Positions 6,316 to 35,344 of a DNA stretch of 46,732 bases are shown here, piece by piece (the stretch's first letter is position 1; each line of letters starts with the position of its first letter). A model generated the notes under the pieces. It was not told where the DNA came from, did no database searches, and worked only from the letters and a program-made list of their open reading frames with translations. The stretch is from Candidatus Tayloriibacteriota bacterium (GTDB taxonomy: Bacteria; Patescibacteriota; Minisyncoccia; Phycocordibacterales; CAIZLB01). The position numbers and the translations under genes are program-made. The stretch lies in contig VEQN01000006.1 in NCBI GenBank assembly GCA_018883165.1, forward strand, positions 1 to 46,732, read 5' to 3'.

Positions 6316-6343
6316 TTGACTATATTTAATGATGTGTTATTAT
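6316..6343 (+). promoter_or_regulatory. promoter-like element upstream of 6414 orphan gene
   Basis: TTGACT (6316-6321), 16 nt spacer, TATTAT (6338-6343). Confidence 0.45.
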
Positions 6344-6413
6344 ACCACTGAGCGAGGGCTCTTTTTTTATTTGTCCCGAAGCTCTTTGACAACCAAACCC
6401 AGCAACCCAACCC

Positions 6414-6923
6414 ATGAAGAAGATAATTATCATTGGAGCAGAACCAGATCCACACAAGATCAAACCTGAAAACTCAGACTCATTTTGGAGGAGACTTGCA
6501 CGTCGAGCAGAGGAAATGCTCAAAATGCTTTCCCCTCACCTGGTGAGCCAAAAGCCAATCTCGATTGTCCGTGAACAGTGTTCACAGTGCCAGACTACGT
6601 CTGCAAGAATCGAAACAAAGGTGTTGTCTGATGGAAAACACACAACCAGAAACCTAGTCCGGTACGAAGACATACCGGAGACTGTGGCAACAACTGATGC
6701 TGACATCATATGCATCACCACTGCCGCAGCAACACTCAGGGATTTGGTGGAGACTATCGCACAGGAACATGCGGCCAGTTACACCTGGCCACAAGATCGA
6801 TACCTGATGGCAGTTGTCATTGATGGCGACAAAGTCACTTTTTGTACTCCAAACCAATCAATACCACTGTTCAAACAGGGCCATCTCATTGAGTATCATG
6901 TACCTGTTGCTGTAGCTGCATAG
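6414..6923 (+). CDS. orphan; putative catalytically degenerate histidine-phosphatase (SixA-like) fold protein
   Basis: 169 aa; IIIIGAEP at the RHGE position, 'REQCSQCQTTSARI' resembling 'SSPxxRARQTAExI', late 'DADIICITTAAATLRDL' at the 'VGHNPxxxxL' position. Confidence 0.7.
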   Translation: MKKIIIIGAEPDPHKIKPENSDSFWRRLARRAEEMLKMLSPHLVSQKPISIVREQCSQCQTTSARIETKVLSDGKHTTRNLVRYEDIPETVATTDADIICITTAAATLRDLVETIAQEHAASYTWPQDRYLMAVVIDGDKVTFCTPNQSIPLFKQGHLIEYHVPVAVAA

Positions 6924-6947: not shown

Positions 6948-6979
6948 AAAGGAGCAACCTGCCAAGGTTGCTCCTTTTT
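6948..6979 (+). terminator. intrinsic terminator
   Basis: AAAGGAGCAACC-TGCCA-AGGTTGCTCCTTTTT. Confidence 0.85.
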
Positions 6980-6982
6980 GTA

Positions 6983-7010
6983 TTGACCTGATCGTATATC
7001 TTCGTATATA
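6983..7010 (+). promoter_or_regulatory. promoter-like element upstream of second orphan gene
   Basis: TTGACC (6983-6988), 16 nt spacer, TATATA (7005-7010). Confidence 0.5.
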
Positions 7011-7101
7011 TTGTTGCCGTAATTCGGGGCATAGAAATATGCCCCCCCTTCCTTGAAAATTAAACTCAACACTCATGCTGTTCCAATTCCTACCCAAACT
7101 C

Positions 7102-8891: not shown

Positions 8892-9003
8892 ACCCTTGTG
8901 GACATAATCTCAAAAAACCATTATATACTCATATTGATAAATATCTATACTGTGGTATAAATTGATCAGATTTGAAAACCAAACAACCAACCGGAGAAAC
9001 ACC

Positions 9004-10646: not shown

Positions 10647-10820
10647 ACGGCTACTATATCACAAACATGGAATATGTCTGTACCTTGTTGATTTTAGGGC
10701 GTAAATGAGGTAGTCTTTCCGCCAGATATGAACCTTCACATGTCGCAGGAAGCTGTGAGTTTTTATGCGAGAATTCACAACTTTCTGTGACACAGCAACC
10801 CGTCACGGAATGCACCCAAA

Positions 10821-11300
10821 ATGACAACAGCAAAAGTAATAATCGCAGGTACGATTTTAATCTGCCTGCAAATCGTGTGGTTCCTGCAGGAGCTGCAACA
10901 TCATGTAACGACGAATGCCATCCTTGAATTATCCGGATTCATGGGGAAACCAATGATTGGACAAACCATTGCTCCATTCTTCAAGGTGGTCTGTTTCATT
11001 ACCATCCCCTACAGCATCTGGAGAATCTCACAGGTGCTGATGCTTGAAAAAGATGAACCTGAACACACGGCAAATTCATTCTTCTTCGAACTTGCTGCGG
11101 TGTTTCTGTTTTTTCTTGCCATGCATGATCTTTGCTACGGCTTCAGTGGCAAGGTGTTCACTCCTCTGACATTTGGCCCAGCAAGGCTCATACTCACCCT
11201 CATTGTGTGGGTGGTTGCCTATAGGCTACTGGAAGAATCGCAACAAGAGATGGGGAGAAGCATCCAGAAAAGGATTGATCGAACACGGATGGTGTTCTGA
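10821..11300 (+). CDS. orphan multi-TM protein
   Basis: 159 aa, about 4 hydrophobic helices; G-poor C-rich leader (CAGCAACCCGTCACGGAATGCACCCAAA); own terminator. Confidence 0.65.
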   Translation: MTTAKVIIAGTILICLQIVWFLQELQHHVTTNAILELSGFMGKPMIGQTIAPFFKVVCFITIPYSIWRISQVLMLEKDEPEHTANSFFFELAAVFLFFLAMHDLCYGFSGKVFTPLTFGPARLILTLIVWVVAYRLLEESQQEMGRSIQKRIDRTRMVF

Positions 11301-11302
11301 AA

Positions 11303-11335
11303 AAAGGTCGACGAGAATTCCACTCGTCGACCTTT
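11303..11335 (+). terminator. intrinsic terminator
   Basis: AAAGGTCGACGAG-AATTCCA-CTCGTCGACCTTT, 13-bp perfect stem. Confidence 0.85.
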
Positions 11336-24757: not shown

Positions 24758-25405
24758 TCAGAGAAGCTGTTTTTCTTGAGAGCGCATGAGTTGTATCCCC
24801 GAACCCTCTTCAATACTCCAACCCCAATCAACCGTCGGATCTTTCGGTATGAGGTACTTGTACTTCCCATTAAGCCATTCGACCATGAGCCTTGGTGGTG
24901 AGTTTTGATCAATCCAAACTCTCACCACACCACGTTCAATGTAACGGATGACCTGACGCGCCCATCGTGCTGGAACATACATCGCACCCATGTATCCCGG
25001 GATTGAATCATGCTGCAGAGCCAATTTTAACCCAGATCCCGTGTCGAGACAAAACGTGGCACCCACAGATATTCTTTGGTGACCAGACATCAGATGCCTG
25101 AAGGCAATGAAGAGACCCACCATGTTGCTGTATCGTCCCTTCAAAGTCTCGCAAGGAGCATGACTCACTGCCAGGTTAATGACACGAGACATTTGTACCC
25201 ATCCATCACTGATCAAGTACCGAGCTGACGGTGCAAGATCAATGCCTGTAAGGTCAATATCGAAAAGATCCAAAGAAAGCCCCACTGTTCTCCATTGAAA
25301 ACCAGGTGAGCACATCCTTGCGGGCGGGCACTTCTCTACTTTTTGCGGATAAATAATGTATGGCGTATCCTGGCGCCTTATATCGACGGTTAGTTTTGTT
25401 TCCAT
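24758..25405 (-). CDS. orphan protein of unknown function
   Basis: METKLTVDIRRQDTPYIIYPQK...; leader contains AAACCCAGCA 4 nt before ATG. Confidence 0.6.
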   Translation of the reverse strand: METKLTVDIRRQDTPYIIYPQKVEKCPPARMCSPGFQWRTVGLSLDLFDIDLTGIDLAPSARYLISDGWVQMSRVINLAVSHAPCETLKGRYSNMVGLFIAFRHLMSGHQRISVGATFCLDTGSGLKLALQHDSIPGYMGAMYVPARWARQVIRYIERGVVRVWIDQNSPPRLMVEWLNGKYKYLIPKDPTVDWGWSIEEGSGIQLMRSQEKQLL

Positions 25406-25499
25406 TTTCTGCTGGGTTTGAGGTGAAAGGATCGTTTGCAGTACTACCACAAATTACATCCGCGTACACTATGCCACAAACATGAGAATATGCAAACAC

Positions 25500-27542: not shown

Positions 27543-28013
27543 TTAAGAAGATTTACCGGTGAGTACGTTTACCCGACCACCGGTGATGTTCACTTCAAGC
27601 ATGGAACCATCTGGAAAACTTTGACTCATGAAGTTCGGATACGGAGGGATTCCGAATTGGTTACAAACATGACCCGAAAGTTTCTGGATTGATTCCTTTC
27701 TTGGATCAACAAAAATCACGATGGTGCAGTCTTCATCGATGGCTTTTGTCAGGACAGACAAGGATGTATCCCCGTTAATATATTGAGGATCGATCTTGAA
27801 TGCTTTTGACAAACTACCACACACCGACCGCGCTTCCTTCGAATCAATCGTGATGAGTTTAATCCTTACTTCCTCATTCGAAATTCTAGCACTGATGGCT
27901 TTGATCAGATTTCGCAATCGAAACTGTTTGTCAGGCGAAAGAACTTCGCCTTGACCAACTCGCTCGAATGGATTGGCGTGGATGAAATACACGTACATTA
28001 CTGACTGTTTCAT
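27543..28013 (-). CDS. orphan; putative degenerate histidine-phosphatase (SixA-like) fold protein
   Basis: MYVYFIHANPFERVGQGEVLSPDKQFRLRNLIKAI (RHG position -> IHA), 'TIDSKEARSVCGSLSKAF', 'TIVIFVDPRKESIQKLSGHV', 'PDGSMLEVNITGGRVNVL'. Confidence 0.7.
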   Translation of the reverse strand: MKQSVMYVYFIHANPFERVGQGEVLSPDKQFRLRNLIKAISARISNEEVRIKLITIDSKEARSVCGSLSKAFKIDPQYINGDTSLSVLTKAIDEDCTIVIFVDPRKESIQKLSGHVCNQFGIPPYPNFMSQSFPDGSMLEVNITGGRVNVLTGKSS

Positions 28014-28122
28014 AGTGGGACTGAGGTGCTGGGTTTCGAGCGTGTTACAAACGAGAACAGGGTGTTTCGAAGAACAAACTCATCCAAGATATTACTCCTC
28101 TCTTTCAGGATTGTAAACAAGT

Positions 28123-34444: not shown

Positions 34445-35344
34445 TCACCTTCTTTTCCCATTAATTGAGTCCACTGAAGGAATGATGACATCCTTCGCAA
34501 GACCCGCACGCTTCAATGCCCTGATCACCGCATAACTCAGATCGAGCCAGGGTGTATCAATACCATGAAGCGCTGACCGTGGAAATGCATGATGACCGTT
34601 ATGGAAACCCTCGCCGAAGGCAAGAATACCGAACACATAACTATCCGTCGAAAGATCTCCCGAACGAAATCTGCGTTTACCCCAGATGTGACAGTAGCTG
34701 TTGATGGCCCAGGTCACATGTTGAAGAAGAAAGAGTCTTGCACAACTCCCCCACAAGAATCCCTTGAGGAATCCGTGCTCTGGATCATAGAGGTGTCCAA
34801 GAACCGCTGGCAAGAAAGCACTCGTAAGCATCCAGAACCAGGTAGTACTATCCACCAACGAAACGATTGGATCCGAGATCAGACGTTTGTAGCATTTGTT
34901 TTCAGGTGGTTTTCCAACTTTAAGTAACCACATAAACTGTGCATGTAATACACCTTTAAGCAGGTTCCAAAAACTTACTCCATATTTCCATGGCGAATGC
35001 GGATCTCTCGGCTTGTCACTAGCCTGATGATGATCGGCGTGCCGAGTACACCAGTCAATGATACTTCCTTGAAACGCCATACTACCAAGGACTGCAAGCA
35101 GGAATCGAATTGAAGGATTAGCAACGAAAGATTCGTGAGTAAACAAACGATGGAATCCCACTGTGATACCAAGTCCAGTAAGGACATAGAAAACCAGAGC
35201 GAGGATGATGTAGAACCATTCAAGGTATCCATGCTGCCATAGAGTAAGGCAAGCATACAAGAAACCTACAAACGGAACGATGATAACAGCAAGCACCGCG
35301 AAGCGCTTAGGTGCGGATGGACCGCTTCGAGAATCAGAGTTCAT
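34445..35344 (-). CDS. acyl-CoA/acyl-lipid delta-9-type fatty acid desaturase
   Basis: three His boxes: HRLFTH, HADHH, HNGHH; 'GLGITVGFHRLFTHESF', 'EGFHNGHHAFPRSALHG'. Confidence 0.92.
   Translation of the reverse strand: MNSDSRSGPSAPKRFAVLAVIIVPFVGFLYACLTLWQHGYLEWFYIILALVFYVLTGLGITVGFHRLFTHESFVANPSIRFLLAVLGSMAFQGSIIDWCTRHADHHQASDKPRDPHSPWKYGVSFWNLLKGVLHAQFMWLLKVGKPPENKCYKRLISDPIVSLVDSTTWFWMLTSAFLPAVLGHLYDPEHGFLKGFLWGSCARLFLLQHVTWAINSYCHIWGKRRFRSGDLSTDSYVFGILAFGEGFHNGHHAFPRSALHGIDTPWLDLSYAVIRALKRAGLAKDVIIPSVDSINGKRR

Follow-up and report, generated by a model that had tools for sequence, protein, structure and literature searches.

C/A-rich, G-poor leaders on a class of orphan genes in a Tayloriibacteriota genome whose 16S rRNA lacks the anti-Shine-Dalgarno sequence

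The 10-mer AAACCCAGCA that precedes three orphan genes in the window (the complete 46,732-nt stretch of DNA analysed here) is one word within a C/A-rich, G-poor stretch in the leaders of a class of orphan genes, which occurs genome-wide (G000) and again in a genome of the same genus (G011). The 16S rRNA of this organism has no CCUCC anti-Shine-Dalgarno (anti-SD) sequence, and we give about an even chance to a model in which the orphans were acquired and their translation is started through the unstructured C/A leader by ribosomes that lack an anti-SD. The original prediction, that a shared leader signal marks these orphans, thus holds for the C/A-rich leader class, in this genome and in G011, and fails for the exact 10-mer.

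Results

Orphan genes and leader elements in the window

The window belongs to a Paceibacteria (CPR) genome whose gyrB is closest to Patescibacteria, first to Candidatus Paceibacterota and next to Taylorbacteria, Lloydbacteria and others. The three copies of AAACCCAGCA are exact and have no further counterpart in the window, and their distances of 9, 4 and 13 nt to the ATG are as first reported. The GTGAC-10 nt-GTCAC hairpin in the leader of orphan 10821 lies where it had been placed, the leaders of 9004 and of the desaturase starting at 35344 are C/A-rich as described, and ATG 23614 is present with TTAAACCCC upstream. The features are given below as coordinates, strand and description.

6316-6343, plus strand: promoter of orphan 6414 by consensus match only, TTGACT-16-TATTAT, the -10 box being preceded by TG
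6383-6396, plus strand: boxA-like TCTTTGACAACCAA, running into the first letters of the 10-mer; 12.6 bits with a position weight matrix (PWM) derived from rrn boxA elements in related genomes
6395-6404, plus strand: first copy of AAACCCAGCA, in a C/A-rich stretch, 9 nt before ATG 6414
6414-6923, plus strand: orphan 6414, 169 aa, GC3 0.44; no Pfam or PHROGs family above cut-off
6948-6977, plus strand: terminator of orphan 6414, 13-bp stem and T run
6983-7012: promoter-like TTGACC-18-TATATT upstream of 7075
7050-7063, plus strand: boxA-like TCCTTGAAAATTAA in the leader of orphan 7075; 10.1 bits
7075-7587, plus strand: orphan 7075, 170 aa, or 160 aa if ATG 7105 is the start
8969-8982, plus strand: weak boxA-like GATTTGAAAACCAA, followed by a C/A-rich stretch, in the leader of 9004; 7.1 bits
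9004-9687, plus strand: orphan 9004, 227 aa, GC3 0.42
10787-10806, plus strand: GTGAC-N10-GTCAC inverted repeat in the leader of 10821, read from the sequence
10821-11300, plus strand: orphan 10821, 159 aa; terminator at 11303-11335
24758-25405, minus strand: orphan 25405, 215 aa, GC3 0.47; terminator-like element at 24747-24712
25410-25419, minus strand: second copy of AAACCCAGCA, 4 nt before ATG 25405
27543-28013, minus strand: orphan 28013, 156 aa, GC3 0.46; terminator at 27534-27507
28027-28036, minus strand: third copy of AAACCCAGCA, 13 nt before ATG 28013
28089-28117, minus strand: weak promoter-like TTTACA-17-TAATAT of orphan 28013 (consensus match only)
34445-35344, minus strand: member of the outlier class encoding a fatty acid desaturase (PF00487, E=1.7e-14); GC3 0.44, with leader CTCAACCCAAG

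A class of outlier genes with C/A-rich leaders

Genes were called in sampled genomes with a simple gene finder of our own that takes the first ATG as start; for the present genome the sample comprises 492 kb of 749 kb, supplemented by pattern searches over the whole genome. Outliers are genes with GC3 of at least 0.40 (the median of typical genes is 0.32), and with thresholds chosen in this way while viewing the data, the last 25 nt of the leader are C-rich and G-poor in 18 of 73 outliers, compared with 5 of 403 other genes (P=6e-12). The outliers that were examined are mostly orphans, solitary between conserved genes and apparently monocistronic, as the original prediction had it; its further proposal of a regulon is unsupported, there being no sign of a common regulator.

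Sigma-70 promoters were found upstream of 10 of 41 outliers, compared with 2.0 in shuffles, with leaders mostly of 46-128 nt. As an enrichment at the level of the class, promoters typically lie 50-130 nt upstream; in G011 this enrichment is weak (3/31 compared with 1.1). A terminator is present within 110 nt for 21/41 outliers and for 88/367 typical genes (P=6e-4). The codon usage of the outliers is coherent over five genomes (r 0.83-0.95) and unlike that of the host, and G011 repeats the C/A leader pattern.

Despite their higher GC content, the start regions of outliers fold weakly, with -7.0 kcal/mol compared with -12.5 kcal/mol mid-gene. Shuffled outlier leaders fold as weakly (-6.4 kcal/mol), that is, the start regions are no less folded than their own composition predicts, and their openness is therefore attributed to composition alone. 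The start regions of typical genes are equally open.

Repeats were observed near some members of the class. A row of outlier genes at L011:5700-9500 includes several that lie behind a repeated block (GAGTCCACTCGATTTGACTA..TAATATACTGTTGTATTAT), and long inverted repeats are located within the leaders of, or just upstream of, the outlier genes L007:10144-10839, L020:9010-9813 and L034:11473-12126, and likewise for C2:6775 and C3:1216 of G011.

Anti-SD loss and the starts of typical genes

At the position after helix 45 where other bacteria have TTGGATCACCTCC, the 16S rRNA of the present genome (locus L070, outside the window) reads GTGGAATCATTCAATTTG, with no CCUCC anti-SD. CCUCC is also absent from the 16S rRNA of 10 other members of the family and of 8 genomes representing other families in the order (loci L132-L149 and L151); in total, the anti-SD is missing in 19/19 genomes of the order with a readable 16S 3' end. 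SD sequences stand before 3/364 typical genes in G000, and their absence genome-wide is likely caused by the 16S 3' end without an anti-SD. The lack of an SD that had been pointed out in the orphan leaders is real, however, it is a property of the whole genome and not peculiar to them.

In many typical genes a -10 box (TATAAT, TATACT and similar) peaks at -16 to -12 from the ATG, and other typical genes lie closely behind a neighbouring gene; judged from these positions in the sequence, many typical genes look leaderless or nearly so. A 2024 survey (PMC10783764) places Campbellbacteria and Wolfebacteria among the organisms without CCUCC, and its "SD-scarce" class iv comprises Flavobacteriia, Carsonella, Candidatus Campbellbacteria, Candidatus Wolfebacteria and others (see also PMC6107228); a literature search retrieved no paper describing anti-SD loss for the present order. 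The present genome is like these SD-scarce organisms in having a 16S rRNA without CCUCC and typical genes almost without SD, but differs from them in three respects: the loss is seen in all 19 genomes of one CPR order with a readable 16S 3' end, -10 boxes lie at the start codon, and a further set of genes carries long leaders of a distinct type.

Proposed initiation inside the C/A leader

We infer that the orphans were acquired and that the C/A stretch drives their initiation. Orphan genes would be acquired and quickly turned over, each with its own promoter and terminator. For many of the lineage's own genes the start would be at or near the mRNA 5' end, or immediately after a preceding gene; an acquired gene would retain its full promoter and a leader of about 50-130 nt, and its start codon would therefore have to be located inside the RNA without SD pairing. 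The G-poor C/A stretch, expected to fold poorly, would leave the start region open, so that the small ribosomal subunit may land there.

Translational enhancers that are unstructured or C/A-rich are known, e.g., the (CAA)n region of the TMV omega leader. The orphan leaders are similar in that a C/A-rich, G-poor open stretch, which would work without SD pairing, lies before the ATG; they differ in belonging to chromosomal orphan genes, and the enhancer role is predicted. No site of pairing between the C/A leaders and the organism's own 16S rRNA was detected beyond what shuffles give.

SD-bearing outliers in related genomes

Outliers of the same kind carry AAAGGAGG-type SD sequences in G012, of the same genus (15/34 compared with 5/208 typical genes), and in G016, of another family (11/36 compared with 3/325), despite the absence of an anti-SD from the 16S rRNA of both genomes. 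Leader signals therefore need not suit the recipient, and we count this observation against the favoured initiation model. It also fits the main rival explanation, in which the C/A leaders are inherited from donors (other bacteria, plasmids or phages) and have no special role in the present genome, and which also draws on the foreign families among the G016 outliers (PEP-CTERM, carbonic anhydrase and citrate transporter). We regard this explanation as possible, albeit rather unlikely. Mixed donors predict a mixture of leader types, whereas the type is fairly uniform within each genome (SD in 2/49 outliers of G000 and 2/35 of G011), and outlier codon usage is similar in genomes with and without SD-bearing outliers, with r 0.91-0.94 for G012 compared with G000 or G011.

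The G012 outliers are solitary between genes syntenic with this window; for instance, a pair occupies the interval from gyrB to the homolog of 9738, where the window has a PEP-domain gene and three different orphans. Together with the foreign families of G016, this synteny supports the view, which the favoured model shares, that the outliers were acquired from outside.

On contig C19 of G012, single SD-bearing orphans were seen amid syntenic host genes, e.g., at 67727-68284 and 68540-69202 (L071-L076). Contig C1 of G016 (L091-L110) harbors many genes with GC3 of 0.6-0.87, among them one for a PEP-CTERM protein and others for apparent lipoproteins, at a genome GC of 0.39; these high-GC3 genes are likely recent acquisitions.

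boxA-like elements and leader composition

The boxA-like element in the 6414 leader (TCTTTGACAACCAAA / GCTCTTTGACAACCAAA) is a clear match, with one mismatch relative to TCTTTGACAACTAAA, the boxA of rrn operons in related genomes, and the leaders of 7075 and 9004 contain TTGAAAA forms, with a fair match in 7075 and a weak one in 9004. Over five genomes, PWM matches of at least 9 bits are present in 12/232 outlier leaders, compared with 19/1241 typical leaders (P=0.0015) and with 2/232 on the opposite strand of the outlier leaders. The genome encodes NusB (PF01029, E=9e-34). These data could be accounted for by antitermination: the predicted boxA would recruit NusB-NusE (S10), polymerase would read through the long leader and the gene, and the C/A stretch would represent the usual surroundings of a boxA. 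However, strong matches, while 3.5 times commoner in outlier leaders, are confined to about 5% of the outliers, and the 10-mer genes 25405 and 28013 score below 6.5 bits, making antitermination quite improbable as the explanation for the class. The resemblance to rrn leaders that act through NusB-NusE consists in the sequence match, seen for 6414, 7075 and a handful of further genes, and in the encoded NusB; unlike rrn boxA, the elements stand before single orphan protein genes, near the ATG, and only a minor fraction of the class has them. The boxA matches in outlier leaders are a lead, not a settled assignment.

Composition alone, whereby GC-richer genes have GC-richer leaders by chance and the C-rich ones are picked out, is very improbable as an explanation. 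The C content of leaders does climb with the GC3 of the gene (rho 0.28), however, the G content shows no parallel rise in G000 and G011 (the outliers have C 0.27 and G 0.14-0.15). Furthermore, the pooled outlier leaders of these two genomes contain a CAACYCAACC-like motif with a log-likelihood ratio (LLR) of 52.9, compared with at most 31.8 in shuffles of the same leaders, and CAACC[CA] occurs in 16/93 pooled leaders compared with 4.6.

The exact 10-mer in the genome

Within the window, AAACCCAGCA occurs three times, compared with a shuffle mean of 0.17, and 0/100 shuffles reached 3. The complete genome (748.6 kb, 30 contigs) contains 5 copies, where 1.6-2.2 are expected with Markov orders 1-5 (Poisson P 0.02-0.07 for 5); the fourth copy (locus L001) lies 54 nt before an ATG and the fifth (locus L002) within a coding sequence. 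The exact word is present in 3/53 outlier leaders (0.01 in shuffles), all three in the window; it is found in 0/44 outlier leaders outside the window in the 492-kb sample, and its exact count in the G011 sample is zero. With one mismatch it is present in 1/44 of the other outlier leaders (shuffle mean 0.10, maximum 2), and with two mismatches in 3/44 (mean 1.34, maximum 5). The probability that any 10-mer is common to at least 3 of the 53 leaders is 0.002 (shuffles) to 0.005 (Markov), which are post hoc values uncorrected for word length and for the choice of window.

The claim that the word is enriched upstream of starts genome-wide is not borne out, and the counts rule out the exact 10-mer as a signal across the genome. 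Because there are 5 copies where about 2 are expected, 0/44 outside the window and a P that is post hoc, AAACCCAGCA is rated a mild oddity and not a regulon signal. It is hardly credible that a protein or a GcvB-like small RNA binds AAACCCAGCA and so controls these genes jointly: the mismatch counts stay within the shuffle range, the leaders of 6414, 25405 and 28013 are alike only within the 10-mer and not past its edges, the window contains no known RNA family (Rfam), and an Hfq-dependent small RNA was discarded when a search of the genome with PF17209 found no Hfq. The small RNA GcvB has C/A-rich target elements, and C/A-rich words are likewise present here in the 5' leaders of several genes, but in contrast to the GcvB system no Hfq was found and the word does not recur across the genome.

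Relatives of the orphans

No relative was found for orphan 6414 in 14 genomes of the family or in viral contigs, for orphan 25405 in 85,462 species genomes or in viral contigs, and no true one for orphan 28013 in 246 other genomes of the order or in viral contigs; an apparent relative of 28013 in G008 is spurious, being antisense to a glycosyltransferase-like gene. A donor is thus not traceable for any of the three in the family, order or species genomes and viral contigs as searched. A viral origin was considered and rejected, as the three orphans have no relatives in viral contigs and PHROGs gave matches for just 2 of the seven window genes searched, i.e., a weak one for 28013 (E=0.011) and one for the desaturase (E=2e-8).

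By eye, 6414, 7075 and 28013 have a common strand-helix-...-strand-hairpin order that recalls SixA-like histidine phosphatases without the RHG motif. Kinship of the three was rejected when BLASTP gave no match. There is no Pfam match for 6414, 7075 and 28013 and no PDB sequence match for 7075 and 28013, and AlphaFold, run on the single sequences of 6414 and 28013, gave models too poor to use (pLDDT 35-41), which leaves the SixA-like reading unsupported.

Discussion

Loss of the anti-SD was previously described from scattered organisms; here it is seen in each of the 19 genomes of a CPR order with a readable 16S 3' end, and is accompanied by -10 boxes at the starts and by a second gene class with a leader type of its own. 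The question of how ribosomes without an anti-SD locate starts inside long leaders is thereby made directly testable. Leader type, codon usage and terminator combine into a simple tag for probably acquired genes in CPR genomes, and gene finders built on an SD model or on a single codon model may overlook starts or entire genes in the genomes of this order.

A broader form of the favoured model, which appears improbable, assigns two coexisting initiation systems to the order: one for leaderless or coupled host genes, and one for an orphan pool, subject to turnover, that has a dedicated CAACYCAACC-like C/A start signal or, in other species, an SD that the 16S rRNA cannot pair with. If this were true, the orphan pool would be marked for another mode of initiation, or even for ribosomes that are not the cell's own.
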